Virus record (IMG/VR): IMGVR_UViG_3300010370_000077
Span: 1 to 40,508 of that record
Source of the DNA: a virus
DNA length: 40,508 bases
Direction: 5' to 3' (one strand)
Shown here in pieces: positions 25,854 through 37,997 of this stretch. Under the pieces are notes generated by a model. That model saw only the letters and a program-made list of their open reading frames with translations. It did not search any database and was not told the origin of the DNA. The stretch's first letter is position 1, and the number at the start of each line of letters is the position of its first letter. Made by a program: the position numbers and the translations under genes.

Positions 25854-26618
25854 CTTTTCAGCGTCCTCCAGCTGGTCGCGGGTCATGTGGTGGACGTTGG
25901 GGGTGCCACAGCGTCGCGCCAGCACAATGGCGGCGCCGGTGGGTTGGAGGCCGGTGAGGTGCTTTAGTCCCAGCGAGTAGGCGCCGCACTGGTCGATGTA
26001 TGAATGGCCGGTTGGTAATCTGTCCTCGGCGTCGGTTTTGCGTCCCACGCTGGTTTTCCAGTCTGCCAGCACCAGCTCGTTATTTTTCATGCCTACTAGG
26101 GCGTCGCAGGTTCCAGCGAAGCCGGCGGGGTGATGAATGGAAAATTCGCTGGCGAAAATTTCGGTGACGTGCTCGGAGATCCAGTCGGAGAGGCCGCGGG
26201 CATAGCCTGAGGCGCTCCAGCCAACGCGGGGAACATTTGGCCTCACCCGTTGGAGAGCCCACTGTGTGATCTTGGGCGGGATACGCGCCAGCCCTTGATC
26301 GTCCCAGCGAATGGCGTTGCGCTTGTTTGCAGTAGAACGCGCCAGCTGTTGGGCGGTCTTGAGGAGGTATTCAGCTTGTGAATGGGCCATGTTGCCGCGG
26401 GTGGCGGCGATGTTGCGCTGACAACTGGCCTCCACTGGTCCCAGGCGGGCTTCCCAACGCTCCAGGCCGGTTTTGTCGCTTGTTTCCTTCAGGATGTGTG
26501 TAACACTATGGTAGGTATTGCCTCTGATGTCCCGGTAGACCCTGAATGGGCCGGTGTCGTCTCGCTCCAGCCTCCATTTCCTGAGTTCTGCCAGGGTGTC
26601 TTGGGTGTTGGAGGCCAT
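25779..26618 (-). CDS. PD-(D/E)XK exonuclease (RecB/Cas4-like)
   Basis: A 279-residue protein. The nuclease core is visible at about residues 165-225: HHPAGFAGTCDALVGM (metal Asp), ELVLADWKTSVG (the D..K motif) and YIDQCGAYSLGLKH (conserved Gln-Tyr). The N-terminal half, YHSVTHILKETSDKTGLERWEAR followed by NIAATRGNMAHSQAEYLL, has the HxxxE helix of phage exonucleases. It probably resects or recycles DNA during recombination-dependent replication. It is co-directional with the ssDNA-binding gene upstream, and the terminator between them means partial readthrough or its own promoter. The pairing suggests an exonuclease/SSB recombination module. Confidence 0.87.
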   Translation of the reverse strand: MASNTQDTLAELRKWRLERDDTGPFRVYRDIRGNTYHSVTHILKETSDKTGLERWEARLGPVEASCQRNIAATRGNMAHSQAEYLLKTAQQLARSTANKRNAIRWDDQGLARIPPKITQWALQRVRPNVPRVGWSASGYARGLSDWISEHVTEIFASEFSIHHPAGFAGTCDALVGMKNNELVLADWKTSVGRKTDAEDRLPTGHSYIDQCGAYSLGLKHLTGLQPTGAAIVLARRCGTPNVHHMTRDQLEDAEKSFMTRVELYFSGLKALENAIHTSA

Positions 26619-27423: not shown

Positions 27424-29835
27424 GTGTCGCATGTGACGCAAGAGTTGCTGGCATTTGTGCGCCAGCTGCCGCCTGGTATTGCCTACGCGCCTATTTACGC
27501 CAAGGGGCAGGCCATTCAGTCCGGGAAAATCAGTAAGGGCAAAACCCCGTTGGAGCGCAGTCACCATCAGGTGATGACGCCGGCGGATGTGGCGCTCCAG
27601 ATCGAGCGCAAGCCGGAGGTGTTCAAGGCGGTGGGAGCGTTCACCGGGCCCCGTAGTGGTGGTCTGGTGATCTTGGATGTGGACCGCAACCTGGCTCGCC
27701 TTAAGAAGAAGTGGGGCTCCAGCCTGGACGGGGCGCCGGTGGTTGAGTCCACTAAGTCCAACGCTGCGAAATACCTGTTCCGCGTGCCTGAAGGCTTGTG
27801 GGCTGAGGTGAAGGGGATTGGCCTGTCGGATACCGGGGCGGGCTACGAGGTCCTCTGGGGCCGCCAGGGGCTCCTCTACGGGGCTTATCCGGGCTCTAGC
27901 GATGGGAAGGCGCCAGAAGGGCAATACGGCTTCACAGGCGATCTGGAGGCCATTCCAGACGCTCCAGAGTGGTTGATCGCGGAGATGAAGGATGCCGCTG
28001 GCCGTGAGGTGCAGGACGGTGGCTTCATCAAGAACCGCAAGGCGCTGGACTTTTCGGATCGAGACCCAGATGAGATTGCTGAGATTATTCAGTCGGCGCT
28101 GAAGGTGATCCCCGGTCAGGGCGCTGGCAGCCGGGATCACTGGGTCAAGGTGGGCATGGCGATTCACTCGGAGCTGCCGAACGAGCGGGGCCTGATGCTC
28201 TGGTCGGCGTGGTCGGCTGAGGATCCGGAATACAGCGATGAGTGGGCTGGCTCCAATCCCTGTGAGGAGGTTTGGAAGAGCTTTCGGAAGGGGCCGGTAA
28301 GCCTGGGCTCGCTGTTTTGGCTGGCGGATCAGCAGCTGCCTGGGCGGCTGTGGTTGTCGGAGGATCTGCGGAAGGTGGTGGCCGAGGTTGAGGCCGATAA
28401 CGTCACCCGGATTCGCCAGGTTGTCATCACCTATGCCGAGGTGATTCGCCGGGCTAAGGAGATCCAGGAGATCCAGAACCCGGCGGAGGCGGCGCACGCC
28501 ATGAATGTGCTGGCTCTGGAGGCTGGCTACCGCGATGCTGGGGCTCTGGAGCGGTTGCTGATCGCCCAGATGCAGTTCGAGCAGCAGGACGACGAGATGG
28601 CCATGAGCAGGCTGTTGGAGAAGGACCTGAAGTTCGAGTACCTGATCCCGGATCTGCTGCCTTGCCCGGGCACTGTGATGATCCACGGCGCTGGTGGTGA
28701 TGGCAAATCAATGTCGGCCTGGACTATCGCCAAGCACGTGGCCCGCGGGATTCCGTTCTCGGTGCGGGGTGATCTTGTTCCAGTGCAGTCCGGGCCTGTT
28801 CTGATCCTCAACGGTGACCAGAGCGAGGTGCAGGTTCAGCAGCAGCTGCGGGATCTGGAGTTTCAGGCGAGCGACCCCGTGACCGTGGTGATGGGGTGGG
28901 ACCTGAACTGGTACTACCGCTTCACCAAACTGATCGAGAAGCACCGGCCCAAGCTGGTGATCATCGACTCGATCACGGGTTGCAGCCGTGGGTCGGCGTT
29001 CGATGAGAACAAGAAGGAGTTTGCGAGCCCGATCTACTGGTTGGCTAACAACAACGGGCGGACTTTCCCGGCCTGCACGATCCTGCTGATTCACCACGCC
29101 AACAAGACCGGTGGGTTCCGGGGCAGCACCGCCATCAGGGACGCTGTGGATGAGGTGTGGGGGCTGCGGCGGCCCGATAAGAAGCAGCTGGAGCAGACCG
29201 GCGCCAATGCTCGCCTGATCACCGTGGAGAAGTCCAGGGCTGGTCGTGATGGCAGCAAGCTGCTGATGAAGCTGGAGAGCGACCTGACGTTCTCGCTGAC
29301 CGACTACGTGGAGCTGGATGGCGATAGCTCCAGTCCGGCTTCCATCGTGGATCGGGTGCTCCAGCGCATCAGGGCTGCCTACCCACGCTCGGTCAGTCGG
29401 TCTGATCTGGCGGCTGATCCGTTATGCGGTGGCAGCGTCGCTGGAATTAAGAAGGCGACCCAGCGATTGGTCTCCCGTGGTCTTATTTGTGTCTCAGGTG
29501 AGACGCCTGGGAGGAATGGTGCTCCAGGTAATCCCTTGTTCCAAGCAATTACCTCGCGTGAAAAGCCTTTAAAAGTGTGTCCCTCGGTATCAGAAGCCTT
29601 GGTACGACTGGAAAAGGTACCGGGACACGGGGTAGAGGCTGTCCCGGTCCCCCTTGACGATCTGGTAACTGGCACAGACCCCCGGGACACCGATTCGGGC
29701 TGTCCCGGTATAGAAGCCAGTCATACCAATGGATCTGGTACCGAGGGACAGCTTTTGCATGGCTCCCCAAGGGAAGAACGGTCGGCGGAGGAGTTGACCG
29801 CCCTGATGGAGCAAGCCGCACAGCTTTGGGACTGA
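27424..29835 (+). CDS. Primase-polymerase / superfamily 4-like helicase fusion
   Basis: An 803-residue protein from GTG 27424, with GGAG at 27411-27414 as ribosome site. Residues about 30-200 form a primase-polymerase domain (GPRSGGLVILDVDRN). Residues 205-300 match the PriCT_2 region (DHWVKVGMAIHSELPNERGL ... LGSLFWLAD). Residues about 400-640 are a RepA/DnaB-type ATPase with Walker A (HGAGGDGKS), Walker B (KLVIIDSITG) and LLIHHANKTGGFRGST. A winged-helix-like segment follows at 645-700. The last 90 residues are disordered and encode the nested repeat cluster. It would prime and unwind DNA for the phage polymerase. Confidence 0.93.
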   Translation: MSHVTQELLAFVRQLPPGIAYAPIYAKGQAIQSGKISKGKTPLERSHHQVMTPADVALQIERKPEVFKAVGAFTGPRSGGLVILDVDRNLARLKKKWGSSLDGAPVVESTKSNAAKYLFRVPEGLWAEVKGIGLSDTGAGYEVLWGRQGLLYGAYPGSSDGKAPEGQYGFTGDLEAIPDAPEWLIAEMKDAAGREVQDGGFIKNRKALDFSDRDPDEIAEIIQSALKVIPGQGAGSRDHWVKVGMAIHSELPNERGLMLWSAWSAEDPEYSDEWAGSNPCEEVWKSFRKGPVSLGSLFWLADQQLPGRLWLSEDLRKVVAEVEADNVTRIRQVVITYAEVIRRAKEIQEIQNPAEAAHAMNVLALEAGYRDAGALERLLIAQMQFEQQDDEMAMSRLLEKDLKFEYLIPDLLPCPGTVMIHGAGGDGKSMSAWTIAKHVARGIPFSVRGDLVPVQSGPVLILNGDQSEVQVQQQLRDLEFQASDPVTVVMGWDLNWYYRFTKLIEKHRPKLVIIDSITGCSRGSAFDENKKEFASPIYWLANNNGRTFPACTILLIHHANKTGGFRGSTAIRDAVDEVWGLRRPDKKQLEQTGANARLITVEKSRAGRDGSKLLMKLESDLTFSLTDYVELDGDSSSPASIVDRVLQRIRAAYPRSVSRSDLAADPLCGGSVAGIKKATQRLVSRGLICVSGETPGRNGAPGNPLFQAITSREKPLKVCPSVSEALVRLEKVPGHGVEAVPVPLDDLVTGTDPRDTDSGCPGIEASHTNGSGTEGQLLHGSPREERSAEELTALMEQAAQLWD
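29578..29750. repeat. Three nested variant-matched inverted repeats
   Basis: Six TGTCCC..GGTA elements alternate in orientation. The outer pair TGTCCCTCGGTA (29578-29589) and TACCGAGGGACA (29739-29750) is a perfect 12-base inverted repeat that includes the extra TC/GA. The middle pair TACCGGGACA (29618-29627) and TGTCCCGGTA (29701-29710) is perfect over 10 bases. The inner pair TGTCCCGG (29640-29647) and CCGGGACA (29682-29689) is perfect over 8. All lie inside the disordered C-terminal coding part of primase-helicase. Confidence 0.85.
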
Positions 29836-30182: not shown

Positions 30183-30211
30183 TTGACACCCATCTGTTTA
30201 GGTGTAACACT
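30183..30211 (+). promoter_or_regulatory. Sigma-70-type promoter
   Basis: TTGACA at 30183-30188 is a perfect -35 box. TAACAC at 30205-30210 (or AACACT at 30206-30211) is a fair -10 box with 16-17 bases between. Predicted transcription start is near 30217, inside the hairpin that follows. Confidence 0.75.
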
Positions 30212-30212
30212 A

Positions 30213-30247
30213 AGGACAGCTCACACCCCGTGGGCTGTCCTATTTTT
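30213..30247 (+). terminator. Strong terminator-like hairpin immediately downstream of a promoter
   Basis: AGGACAGCTCAC (30213-30224) pairs with GTGGGCTGTCCT (30230-30241) with a single G-U pair and a five-base loop, then ATTTTT. It would end transcription from the primase-helicase operon. For the promoter at 30183 it would lie at the very 5' end of the RNA. Confidence 0.85.
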
Positions 30248-31376: not shown

Positions 31377-31763
31377 ATGAACATGCACATTCTTTCTGAC
31401 CAGCAGTTCCAGACGATTACTACCGCCCTGGAGCAAGCCTTCGTTGCTATCAACGCTGCCCAGCACGTTGAAATTGACCTGACCACTTCCAAGCAAATTG
31501 CCCCAGCCGCTAAGGCAGAAAAGGCGGTAGCCAAGCCGAAGTCTCAAAGTAAGACTCGTAAGTCCAGCCGCAAGGCGAGGGCGGCGCTGACGGAGAAGAA
31601 GGTGCTGGAGATCAAGCGCCAGCTGCAGGCTGGTGGCAAGTCGGTGGCCAAGATTGCCCGGGAGTTTGGGGTGCATAGCACCACCATCAACTGCATTAAG
31701 TGGGGCAAGACCTGGAAGCATGTGACGCTCCAGCAGGACAAGGCCGCGACCGTGGTGGGCTGA
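31377..31763 (+). CDS. Small DNA-binding protein with C-terminal helix-turn-helix
   Basis: A 128-residue protein. The N-terminal 40 residues are helical (LSDQQFQTITTALEQAFVAI). Residues 45-70 are a lysine/serine/alanine-rich linker. Residues about 72-118 form a helix-turn-helix (LTEKKVLEIKRQLQAGGKSV, then AKIAREFGVHSTTINCIKWG and KTWKHV) of the type found at the C-terminus of HNH homing endonucleases and in small phage regulators. The second HTH protein at 32708 has the same layout. Its own upstream TGTACTACA element could be its target (inference). Confidence 0.82.
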   Translation: MNMHILSDQQFQTITTALEQAFVAINAAQHVEIDLTTSKQIAPAAKAEKAVAKPKSQSKTRKSSRKARAALTEKKVLEIKRQLQAGGKSVAKIAREFGVHSTTINCIKWGKTWKHVTLQQDKAATVVG

Positions 31764-33404: not shown

Positions 33405-35231
33405 ATGGAAATCCTTTTTGGCATCGAGCACCTCTCCACTTTGGAGGGGGCGACTACTGTTGCATTTGACGTGGAGACGACTGGGCTCCAGCCGACCCAG
33501 GGTGGGTTGCGGTTGCTCCAGCTCTGTACCTACGGCAAAACGCCGGTGGTGATCGATTGTTTCGCACTTGAGACTAACGATTGGATTGAGCTGGAGGAAT
33601 TTTTTGAGATTGAGCGCACCTGGATCGCCCATAACGCGGTGTTTGATCTGGGTTGGCTCCAGGAATATGAGATTTATCCGGCGGGCAAGGTTATGTGCAC
33701 CATGCTGGCCAGCCGCGTGCTCACCAATGGTTTGGCCAACGTCAAACACGGTTTGCAGCATGTGGTGAAGCGGTATCTGAAGGAGGAAATTTCTAAGGAA
33801 GAACAGCGCAGTGACTGGTCTGGTGATCTGACCCAGAGCCAGATGGAATATGCCGCTAAGGATGTGGTGGTGTTGACCGAGCTGGAGCGGCAGATCGCGC
33901 AGCGGATGGCTACAGGTGGTCTGTATCCGGCGTGGTTGCTGGAGTGCAGTGCGCTGCCGGCGATGGCGCAGTTATGGCGTACAGGGCTTCCTTTCAACAA
34001 GGAATCCTTGACCCAGTTGATTGAAGACCTCGATATTGAACACCACGAGGTTGGTGAGAAATTCATCGAGGATTTCGACGCGGCGTTGCCCGAGCGCGCC
34101 AAGCTGTGCCGGGGGCTCGATAACAAGCTGCTGTACCAGACAAAGCCTGGCGCAAAAGGAAAGAAAGTTGATGCCGATATTTTTAATCTCAATAGTCCGG
34201 CGCAGCTGCTAAAGAAGTTCACCGCATTGTTGGGCGAAGCGCCGATTGATCCAAAGACTGAGAAGCAGAGTGCAAGTAAGGCTGCGCTCCAGGAATATGT
34301 TGCAGAGCACAAAGTTATTGCTGATTATTTGCGGTGGAAGCGTGTAGAAAAGCGGAGGCAGATGGCGGAGACGTTGTTAAAGAATTTGTCGAAAGACGGG
34401 TTTATTCGTGCCAGTTATCTGCAGATGGGTGCGGATACTGGGCGGATGAGTTGCATGAGTCCCAACCTGCAACAGATTCCGCGGGATCAGCGGTTTAGGG
34501 CGTGCGTTCAGGCTCCAGCTGGCTGGCGACTGGTTGTAGCGGATTACGGCGGGATGGAGATGCGGCTGGCGGCCGCTGAAGCTCAAGATCCTCTTATGAC
34601 TCGGGCGTTCCAGCAGGGGAAGGACCTGCATACGATTACGGCGATGCAGATCTACGGGGTCGCCGAGGATGAGGTTACGAAGGAGCAGCGCCAGATTGCA
34701 AAGTCGGCCAACTTCGGTTTGTTATACGGAAGCGGTGCAAAAGGACTCAGAAATTATGCAGCAACAATGGGAATCCAAATGGATATTGATGAGGCGAAAG
34801 AGGTGCGGGAAAAGTTCCACGCTGCTTATACGGGGATCCACGAGTGGCAGTACAAAAATGCTCGCGCTGCTGATGCGGCTAAGGACAATCCATCTATCAA
34901 CATCCGCATATCGGGGCTCCGGCGGTTTCTTCCGGGTGAGAACAATAAACTCACCACCCGTTGCAACACTCCAATCCAGGGGGCCGGTGCCGCCGTGCTC
35001 AAACTTACGCTCAGCAAACTGTGGCCGCTCCTTAGAGCAGACCGGGAAGAGCGGGTGCGCTTGGCCGGCGTGGTGCATGACGAGATCATCTTGCTCGTCG
35101 TAGAAGAACACGCCGAGACTTGGGCACTCCAGCTGCAAAAAATCATGGAAGAGTGCGAGGCTCGTTGGCTTGGTGATATTCCGCCGCTGGCCGAAGCTAA
35201 GGTCGGGTTGAGCTGGGATCAGGCAAAGTGA
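33405..35231 (+). CDS. DNA polymerase, family A with 3'-5' exonuclease
   Basis: A 608-residue replicative polymerase. The proofreading domain (residues 1-190) has Exo I VAFDVETTGL, Exo II IAHNAVFDLGW and Exo III YAAKDVVV, all with their acidic residues. The polymerase domain has motif A VADYGGMEMRLAA, motif B EQRQIAKSANFGLLYG and motif C VHDEIILLV. There is no 5'-3' exonuclease domain, as in T7-type phage polymerases. The residue aligned with E. coli Pol I Phe762 is Phe (SANFGLLYG). Motif A carries GGME in place of the usual SQIE. It is coupled by GTGA to the next gene. Confidence 0.96.
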   Translation: MEILFGIEHLSTLEGATTVAFDVETTGLQPTQGGLRLLQLCTYGKTPVVIDCFALETNDWIELEEFFEIERTWIAHNAVFDLGWLQEYEIYPAGKVMCTMLASRVLTNGLANVKHGLQHVVKRYLKEEISKEEQRSDWSGDLTQSQMEYAAKDVVVLTELERQIAQRMATGGLYPAWLLECSALPAMAQLWRTGLPFNKESLTQLIEDLDIEHHEVGEKFIEDFDAALPERAKLCRGLDNKLLYQTKPGAKGKKVDADIFNLNSPAQLLKKFTALLGEAPIDPKTEKQSASKAALQEYVAEHKVIADYLRWKRVEKRRQMAETLLKNLSKDGFIRASYLQMGADTGRMSCMSPNLQQIPRDQRFRACVQAPAGWRLVVADYGGMEMRLAAAEAQDPLMTRAFQQGKDLHTITAMQIYGVAEDEVTKEQRQIAKSANFGLLYGSGAKGLRNYAATMGIQMDIDEAKEVREKFHAAYTGIHEWQYKNARAADAAKDNPSINIRISGLRRFLPGENNKLTTRCNTPIQGAGAAVLKLTLSKLWPLLRADREERVRLAGVVHDEIILLVVEEHAETWALQLQKIMEECEARWLGDIPPLAEAKVGLSWDQAK

Positions 35232-36869: not shown

Positions 36870-37997
36870 CTAGTTGGGGCGGATACGCATGAACCAACCT
36901 GTGTCGTCACCCTCGATTAACCAGCGGGGAAGCCAGTTCTTACGGGAGTAAGCCACGCCGGCGCCACCTTTGTGGCTGACGTAGCCGCCGTTGACGAGGT
37001 TGGCCTCGCCGTAGGGGTCGTTCATGATGAAGTGCGTGGGCGTGAATCCCACCACGACGCTCCAGTGGCCGCCGCCGGTTGGATCGCTGACTGGACCTTT
37101 ATGTAGCCAGCCGACAGGGACAGGGTGGCCGTTGCTGATTTCGCTCTCCAGGTCTTCGACCGTGCCGTCCATCTCGAAGGTGGCGGTGAGTCCCAGGGCT
37201 TTTAATGCGGCGATTTGGGCCTTGGGGTCGGTGGTATCACCAAAGCGAGCGCGGAGTTTGTTGTACTCGTAGTCGCCCGAGATCTTGCCGTAGTACCGCG
37301 CCACCATTGCGCAGCTGGAGCTGAAACACTGGCGGTAGCCGGTTGCTCCATCGTCGGGTCCGAGTTGGTATTCGTAGGCGACCTTGAGGATTTTTTCCTT
37401 GGGTTTGACCTTGGGTTTGGTGCCAGCGTGTTGTTCCATCAGCTGGATTAGCTTGCCGGCGTAGTTGGGGTCGGTGGCATAGCCTTCGCGCACCAGCCAT
37501 TGGGCGGCTTCTTCGCGGGTGGTGGCGCCGTTACAACCCTTGTATTGCTTGTAGTCCTTGTACCAGTGGTCGACCAGGTAGATCACGCACGACAACAGGT
37601 CCGGGAAGTCAATGAACGTGTCGGTAATCGTGACCCACTGGCCGTTGATGAATTCTTGGGTTTTGGTGGCGCTGCCTTCGCCTTTTAGCCCGAAAAAGTT
37701 GTTTCTGCCTGAAACCAGCTTGCCGTAACCGGATTCCAGTGCCCATTGGGCAGCGACAAGTTCTGGAAATTTGGCGCCGGCGACGCGGGCAGCTTCAAGC
37801 ACACCTTCCCAGGTGTTGGGGAAGCTGCTTTGTTTGCCGGCTACGCTCCAGGTTTTGAACCAGCCCTGGTCGCGGCCGAGGATGTTGGGGTTGGCCTTAT
37901 TGATGGCTTGCTCCAGCTCGGTGATGGCGGCGAGCTGGTGCGGAAGGGCCTTGTAGTAGCGAAAGAGATCGGCGAGACGGATCTTTGTGGTTGCCAT
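36870..37997 (-). CDS. Endolysin with glucosaminidase and C39-like peptidase domains
   Basis: A 375-residue protein. Residues about 60-190 match the LYZ2/glucosaminidase fold: EGVLEAARVAGAKFPELVAA, ALESGYGKLVSGRNNFFGLK, then YATDPNYAGKLIQLMEQH. The Glu in ALESGYG is the likely catalytic residue. Residues about 215-365 resemble a C39-type cysteine peptidase: YRQCFSSSCAMVARYY (Cys), GGHWSVVVGF (His) and FIMNDPYGE (Asp). The peptidase half may cut stem peptides. There is no signal peptide, so a holin is needed. The small membrane protein gene directly upstream is a candidate. Alternatively it is a virion-associated lysin. Confidence 0.88.
   Translation of the reverse strand: MATTKIRLADLFRYYKALPHQLAAITELEQAINKANPNILGRDQGWFKTWSVAGKQSSFPNTWEGVLEAARVAGAKFPELVAAQWALESGYGKLVSGRNNFFGLKGEGSATKTQEFINGQWVTITDTFIDFPDLLSCVIYLVDHWYKDYKQYKGCNGATTREEAAQWLVREGYATDPNYAGKLIQLMEQHAGTKPKVKPKEKILKVAYEYQLGPDDGATGYRQCFSSSCAMVARYYGKISGDYEYNKLRARFGDTTDPKAQIAALKALGLTATFEMDGTVEDLESEISNGHPVPVGWLHKGPVSDPTGGGHWSVVVGFTPTHFIMNDPYGEANLVNGGYVSHKGGAGVAYSRKNWLPRWLIEGDDTGWFMRIRPN

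Follow-up and report, generated by a model that had tools for sequence, protein, structure and literature searches.

Hypervariable half-sites inside a phage primase-helicase gene form a probable replication origin matched to the winged helix of its own initiator

Why would a phage primase-helicase gene carry, inside the coding sequence for its C-terminal tail, six short repeats arranged as nested inverted pairs? The window analysed here is a whole virus record of 40,508 bp. On its minus strand are structural genes of the siphovirus kind (tail fibre J, tape measure, portal and terminase). It also encodes an SSB, an exonuclease and a divergent replication cluster on the plus strand, with the primase-helicase (27424-29835), a dCTP deaminase-like protein and a PolA-type polymerase (33405-35231). 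A separate small protein, weakly HTH-like, is encoded at 31377-31763, and a minus-strand gene (36870-37997) joins glucosaminidase and C39-like peptidase domains (Pfam) in one protein, perhaps a mixed-type lysin. According to its translation, Pfam and structure models, the primase-helicase, or initiator, consists of Prim-Pol (residues 37-183), PriCT_2 (222-301), AAA_25/RecA-like helicase (403-563) and winged-helix (about 636-710) domains, a disordered tail (712-783) and a C-terminal helix (about 788-802). Pfam returned PF09250 (23.0 bits against a cut-off of 22.8, a marginal match), PF08707 and PF13481. Hence, a Prim-Pol, a PriCT, a P-loop helicase of the AAA_25/RecA-like kind, not SF3, and a C-terminal winged helix predicted from structure modelling are found in one chain, the domain set of archaeo-eukaryotic primase-helicases that end in a winged helix (PMC5862659, PMC4234260). 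The full-length model was poor and not usable beyond the disordered tail.

The six TGTCCC sites that an earlier note had described at 29578-29750 are present as stated, on the plus strand at 29578, 29640 and 29701 and on the minus strand at 29622, 29684 and 29745. They match from the outside in: the outer arms over 12 bp (29578-29589, TGTCCCTCGGTA, with 29739-29750, TACCGAGGGACA), the middle arms over 10 bp (29701-29710, TGTCCCGGTA, with 29618-29627, TACCGGGACA) and the inner arms over 8 bp (29640-29647, TGTCCCGG, with 29682-29689, CCGGGACA). TGTCCC is not enriched over the whole window (16 occurrences against 21.8 expected), but six copies in 173 bp are far more than chance would give: when the whole window was simulated 1000 times under a Markov model, no stretch of that length contained over four. 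The array also consists, in a layout absent from the earlier note, of three tandem 50-bp units of the form TGTCCC...GGGACA, 12 and 11 bp apart. Unit 1 (29578-29627, plus strand) contains half-sites 1 (TGTCCCTCGG, 29578-29587, plus) and 2 (29618-29627, minus); the centre (29640-29689, plus strand), 50 bp long in the window, contains half-sites 3 (29640-29649, plus) and 4 (29680-29689, minus); and unit 3 (29701-29750, minus strand) contains half-sites 5 (29701-29710, plus) and 6 (29741-29750, minus). Across their full 50 bp, units 1 and 3 repeat each other in inverted form (39 of 50 bases identical as reverse complement), sharing blocks (CC, ACTGG) on opposite strands.

The ACTGG block of unit 1 (29607-29611, plus strand) is kept in all relatives and mirrored by CCAGT in unit 3 (29717-29721). 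In relatives it lies midway in both 50-bp units, often with an inner CCAGT..ACTGG palindrome, and it seems to be retained where the half-site sequence differs (loci L228 and L222); the block may serve as another binding site. Outside the array, an exact TGTCCCGGTA 10-mer is found within the exonuclease gene (26528-26537, around 3 kb to the left), and arm 10-mers recur some 3.4-3.5 kb to the left of the array in loci L001 and L091. In 735 kb of flanking sequence, arm 10-mers occurred four times against about six expected, which is not above chance, and we rejected the idea of extra operator copies on this count. After the gene 3′ of the helicase, AAGGACAGCTCACACCCCGTGGGCTGTCCTATTTTT (30210-30247) has the look of an intrinsic terminator, its stem also containing GGACAG/CTGTCC.

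Among relatives, 80 IMG/VR loci with 74-98% identity came from a protein search, and a strict spaced pattern of the 30 fixed bases was found in at least 105 contigs, all of them viral. The same pattern had no match in 84,980 bacterial and archaeal genomes, and the RepA-like genes of S-CBS4 and Manatee Spring, checked for a comparable array, had none. In every array-bearing locus examined, the array occupies the 3′ end of the same primase-helicase gene. Spacings are mirror-symmetric and nearly constant in more than 100 relatives (50/11/centre/11/50), with a centre of variable length and total length shifting in steps of three. The half-site is a 10-bp element made of a nearly invariant TGTCC and five hypervariable bases (N5), as in TGTCCCGGTA (window), TGTCCCACTG, TGTCCAGCTG and TGTCCTCTTT; arrays contain six of them in the window and up to about 13 in relatives. 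All 30 core bases are intact in 79 of the 82 distinct C-terminal sequences, and the cores occur in differing codon phases. Synonymous core positions showed no variation in 28 representatives (TGT is never TGC, and GGA is never another glycine codon), and diversity was 0.00-0.07 in the core, synonymous positions included, compared to 0.4-0.75 in N5. Since the core is fixed at synonymous positions across codon phases while N5 is hypervariable, selection acts on the DNA and not on the tail peptide. A second search, which gave proteins 53-79% identical to its own query, showed that most of these distant relatives retain TGTCC arrays in the tail. Some of them (L222 and L241) have direct TGTCC-N5 runs at 10-bp steps, opposite inverted runs, which suggests a unit of 10 bp, one per helical turn.

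Within a genome, different arms agree in N5 at 3.77 of five positions, while between genomes the agreement is 1.93 for different arms and 1.98 for the same arm. One could argue that the nested arms are selected to pair, as the earlier note did from the matching variants of distant arms, and that they do so either in the mRNA, where they would control the downstream ORF (29826/29835) that overlaps the primase-helicase stop codon, or as a cruciform or single-stranded primase loading site. The region does fold far more strongly than its shuffles as RNA and ssDNA (z of -7.9 and -7.7), and the stem of plasmid pRN1 offers a precedent in which symmetry is required (PMC4234260). However, any inverted repeat would give such z values, so we set aside folding by itself as an explanation. 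Among the 28 representatives, nested partners matched better than tandem partners (12 against 3, p=0.035) and were also ahead of same-direction partners (12 against 5, p=0.14), a residual preference that can be explained by units 1 and 3 being inverted copies of one 50-bp element; a tandem-hairpin model (1:2, 5:6) fitted worse than the nested one. Against pairing, N5 is common to all six arms and not to partners alone. Mismatches between nested arms showed no G.T bias (6 G.T, 21 A.C), and the mean stability of the plus-strand RNA fell 2.7 kcal/mol short of that of its complement (p=0.025), neither of which points to G.U-tolerant transcript pairing. An Rfam search of the array gave only a sub-threshold snoRNA match (E of 0.11). 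Besides, direct half-site runs in L222 and L241 are unable to pair within the run, and pairing leaves unaccounted for the covariation with a DNA-binding domain described below. Selection for pairing is thus rejected as the main cause on the mismatch asymmetry, the strand energies and the all-arm agreement; the note's claim to that effect is mostly unsupported, control of the downstream gene by RNA is disfavoured, and we regard a structured RNA or ssDNA as an improbable account of the array. A cruciform or ssDNA hairpin may still be a step in what happens there.

If the arms share their N5 without being selected to pair, a protein could be reading each of them, and the initiator itself encodes a candidate just upstream. 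An AF2 model of residues 620-717 gave a winged helix (mean pLDDT of 75), with three helices (model residues 19-32, 40-45 and 53-65) followed by a strand-wing-strand hairpin. Among the nearest solved structures by Foldseek were the ROK repressor Lmo0178, bound to its operator, and regulators of the MarR type, with E values of 0.007-0.04 that indicate likeness at the level of the fold only. On the plus strand, the domain (residues 636-710) is encoded at 29329-29553, its recognition helix (672-684) at 29437-29475, with the K676 codon at 29449-29451, and its wing (694-704) at 29503-29535. We compared protein columns with N5 in 65 sequences by partial correlation, removing overall protein distance, which approximates a phylogeny-aware test. 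The best 18 of 393 variable columns all fell within residues 666-714, and the best column elsewhere reached 0.19. Leading columns were 701 (r of 0.78), 676 (partial r of 0.63) and 700 (0.61), and in the wing residues 700, 701, 703 and 704 track N5 with partial r of 0.50-0.78. Residue 676 is hypervariable and flanked by the invariant I675 and K677. The third base of codon 676 gave an r of 0.06 and helices 640-663 of the same domain gave values around zero; these controls make mere linkage to the array unlikely, and we rejected linkage or recombination as the source of the covariation. Base by base, N5 positions 6-8 go with residues 676 and 700, position 10 with 674 and 701, and position 9 with 699 and 702, the latter being less clean, as residue 26 in the primase domain, far from the winged helix, also gave 0.62.

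N5 can also be predicted from the protein. Taking N5 from the genome with the nearest winged-helix residues, with close relatives excluded, leave-one-out prediction reached 0.80 for the winged helix and 0.75 for four helix residues, compared to 0.49 for an adjacent control and 0.37 for the remainder of the protein, which is no better than random (0.41). As these residues were picked once the covariation was known, testing residue 676 on further relatives is fairer, and its rule for bases 6-7 held over a set of 18 taken together (0.64 against 0.33, p=0.001), a set that is not fully independent, with a few loci near training sequences and loci related to each other. The rule is broken in two distant relatives (L210 and L222), both seemingly with a shorter wing. 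By eye, IRKAL/IRKAV goes with CACTG or CACCT, IRKAT or ITKAT with AACTG or AGCTG, IKKAT with CGGxx (the window) or CCCCT, and IGKAL with a T-rich N5. Also by eye, other half-sites occur in lineages whose winged helix clearly differs: TGTCGGAAAA in L228, with apparently the same 50-bp layout, TTTGTCAAAA in L229, TTTGGCAAAA in L227 and a CCGGA-type in L232. Loci L227, L229-L232 and L234 combine a different winged helix (GGKHRERAIRYGLDKLE, GGEHTERMNRSVLEKLE) with inverted repeats in that tail that also differ, and look like a second reader/site lineage. From these sequence comparisons, the recognition helix and wing of the initiator's own winged helix are probably what reads N5.

A winged helix similar to MarR and ROK repressors in Foldseek, with sites just 5′ of the next gene, could also mean an operator array through which the protein represses or times its own gene or the next one, with no role in replication. 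However, this domain is fused to a primase-helicase, the sites are at the 3′ end of its own gene and not at a promoter, and the flanking sequence holds no significant further copies; we find such a role unlikely, somewhat more so than structured nucleic acid. Least probable of all is another phage or host protein as the binder (for partition or packaging, or the small HTH-like protein of the window), to which the ACTGG/CCAGT block might also point, since the array is always inside the primase-helicase gene and, among the helicase columns scanned, those associated with N5 cluster in the winged helix while synonymous controls stay near zero.

According to the observed site architecture, DNA-level constraint and winged-helix covariation, we infer, with a probability of roughly 0.8, that the array is the phage's iteron-type replication origin, lying among the codons for the disordered tail of its own RepA-like initiator. 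Of the earlier note, the proposal of DNA evolving as an origin in that disordered C-terminal part is well supported by the constraint across codon phases and the covariation with the initiator's DNA-binding domain, while selection for pairing mostly did not stand. Prim-Pol/PriCT/helicase proteins with a C-terminal winged helix have been proposed to recognise origins through it (PMC5862659, PMC4234260), and recognition of an origin next to or inside the initiator's own gene has precedents (PMC7581432, PMC4234260, PMC6022878). GC skew in the window showed no switch at the array. In the mechanism that we propose, the winged helix would bind each half-site, its recognition helix and wing reading N5, and the opposed halves would load a pair of helicase rings in opposite orientations about the variable centre. 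This centre would be opened by the RecA-like motor, and the Prim-Pol domain would prime both forks for the PolA-type polymerase of the phage (33405-35231).

An origin inside the initiator gene means that recombination moving the origin carries the matched reader with it, so the pair can switch specificity together. It is possible, although we hold the idea only tentatively and think it rather doubtful, that N5 and the reader residues (676 and the wing) are under diversifying selection and switch together to new origin types. If so, co-infecting relatives, satellites and origin-targeting defences could not use or attack each other's origin, and placing the origin within the initiator gene would make lock and key one inheritable unit. 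The PLE RepA/ori pair with the origin-directed nuclease Odn (PMC8263062) and the arrest that additional copies of its origin impose on lambda (PMC4488673) are precedents related to changing origin identity; that pressure from origin targeting drives the changes of type seen here is speculation. In practice, dozens of natural reader/site pairs identify the half-site and point to the reading residues for Prim-Pol/PriCT winged-helix initiators, reducing the reader/site question to short oligonucleotides and a 98-residue domain. The N5 array could serve as an origin-type marker, with a possible winged-helix recognition code behind it, and the locus clearly shows one stretch of bases serving both as coding sequence and as a cis-acting DNA device, in a phage group that this analysis encountered solely in metagenomes.

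In order to contextualize the array, we compared it with known systems. In Pseudomonas phage vB_PstS-pAN (MW651859, L189), repeats in either orientation, TGTGTTGGGTT and AACCCAACACA, come immediately after a primase-helicase gene, a candidate origin which differs from ours in being intergenic, in its motif and in its PriCT_2/Toprim/D5-like protein. The iteron-like TGTGTTGGGTT repeats, at L189 6700-7020 directly 3′ of that gene, look like an unannotated origin. Lambda O is not a primase-helicase, and the layout and sequence of its sites are unlike the window array; the P4 alpha helicase is of the SF3 type, and to our knowledge the P4 origin repeats do not lie inside the alpha tail. The likenesses are that ori-lambda is inside the initiator gene (PMC6022878) and that alpha primes, unwinds and binds origin repeats via a winged helix in one polypeptide (PMC4234260), although its primase is of the Toprim type, unlike that of the window initiator.

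Closer in domain content are pRN1 ORF904 and Bordetella phage BIP-1/BPP-1, with the same Prim-Pol, helicase and C-terminal winged helix, and in BIP-1 also PriCT_2 (PMC4234260). In pRN plasmids the stem sequence diverges while its symmetry is kept, and neither gel shifts nor footprints with the purified pRN1 ORF904, a close analogue, showed specific binding to the stem-loop region (PMC4234260), a result that counts against the origin reading of the window array. pRN1 differs in having an SF3 helicase, one large stem-loop, lacking iterons, downstream of the gene and motifs ‘not yet identified’ (PMC4234260), whereas the window has identified half-sites and probable reader residues; the AAA_25/RecA-like domain, the discrete repeated half-sites and the direct runs in relatives set the array apart from the pRN1 type of stem-loop origin as described. 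In the PLE satellites of Vibrio cholerae, RepA and its iterons covary as matched types, and the phage origin-directed nuclease Odn targets one iteron type (PMC8263062). PLE iterons are intergenic and belong to a different satellite system, while the window sites are in a coding tail.

Finally, SaPI Rep/ori and SCCmec Cch2/ori resemble the array in that the C-terminal domain of an initiator helicase recognises short iterons by its own gene (PMC7581432), and SaPI Rep apparently binds as two hexamers (PMC7581432; Ubeda et al. 2007 as cited there). The window likewise has short repeats at regular spacing in the initiator gene, and a helicase with a predicted C-terminal DNA-binding domain that matches the site type. 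The SaPI and SCCmec iterons, however, are intergenic, downstream of the gene, and go with other helicases, whereas the window sites fall within a reading frame, in a mirror-symmetric layout that stays fixed, and their presumed reader shares a chain with Prim-Pol/PriCT-2 and a RecA-like helicase. On our best reading, the array and initiator would work like a SaPI-type rep/ori pair. Compared to the open-access literature, what appears to be new is the location in the coding tail of the initiator, with a fixed layout and a readable reader/site code.
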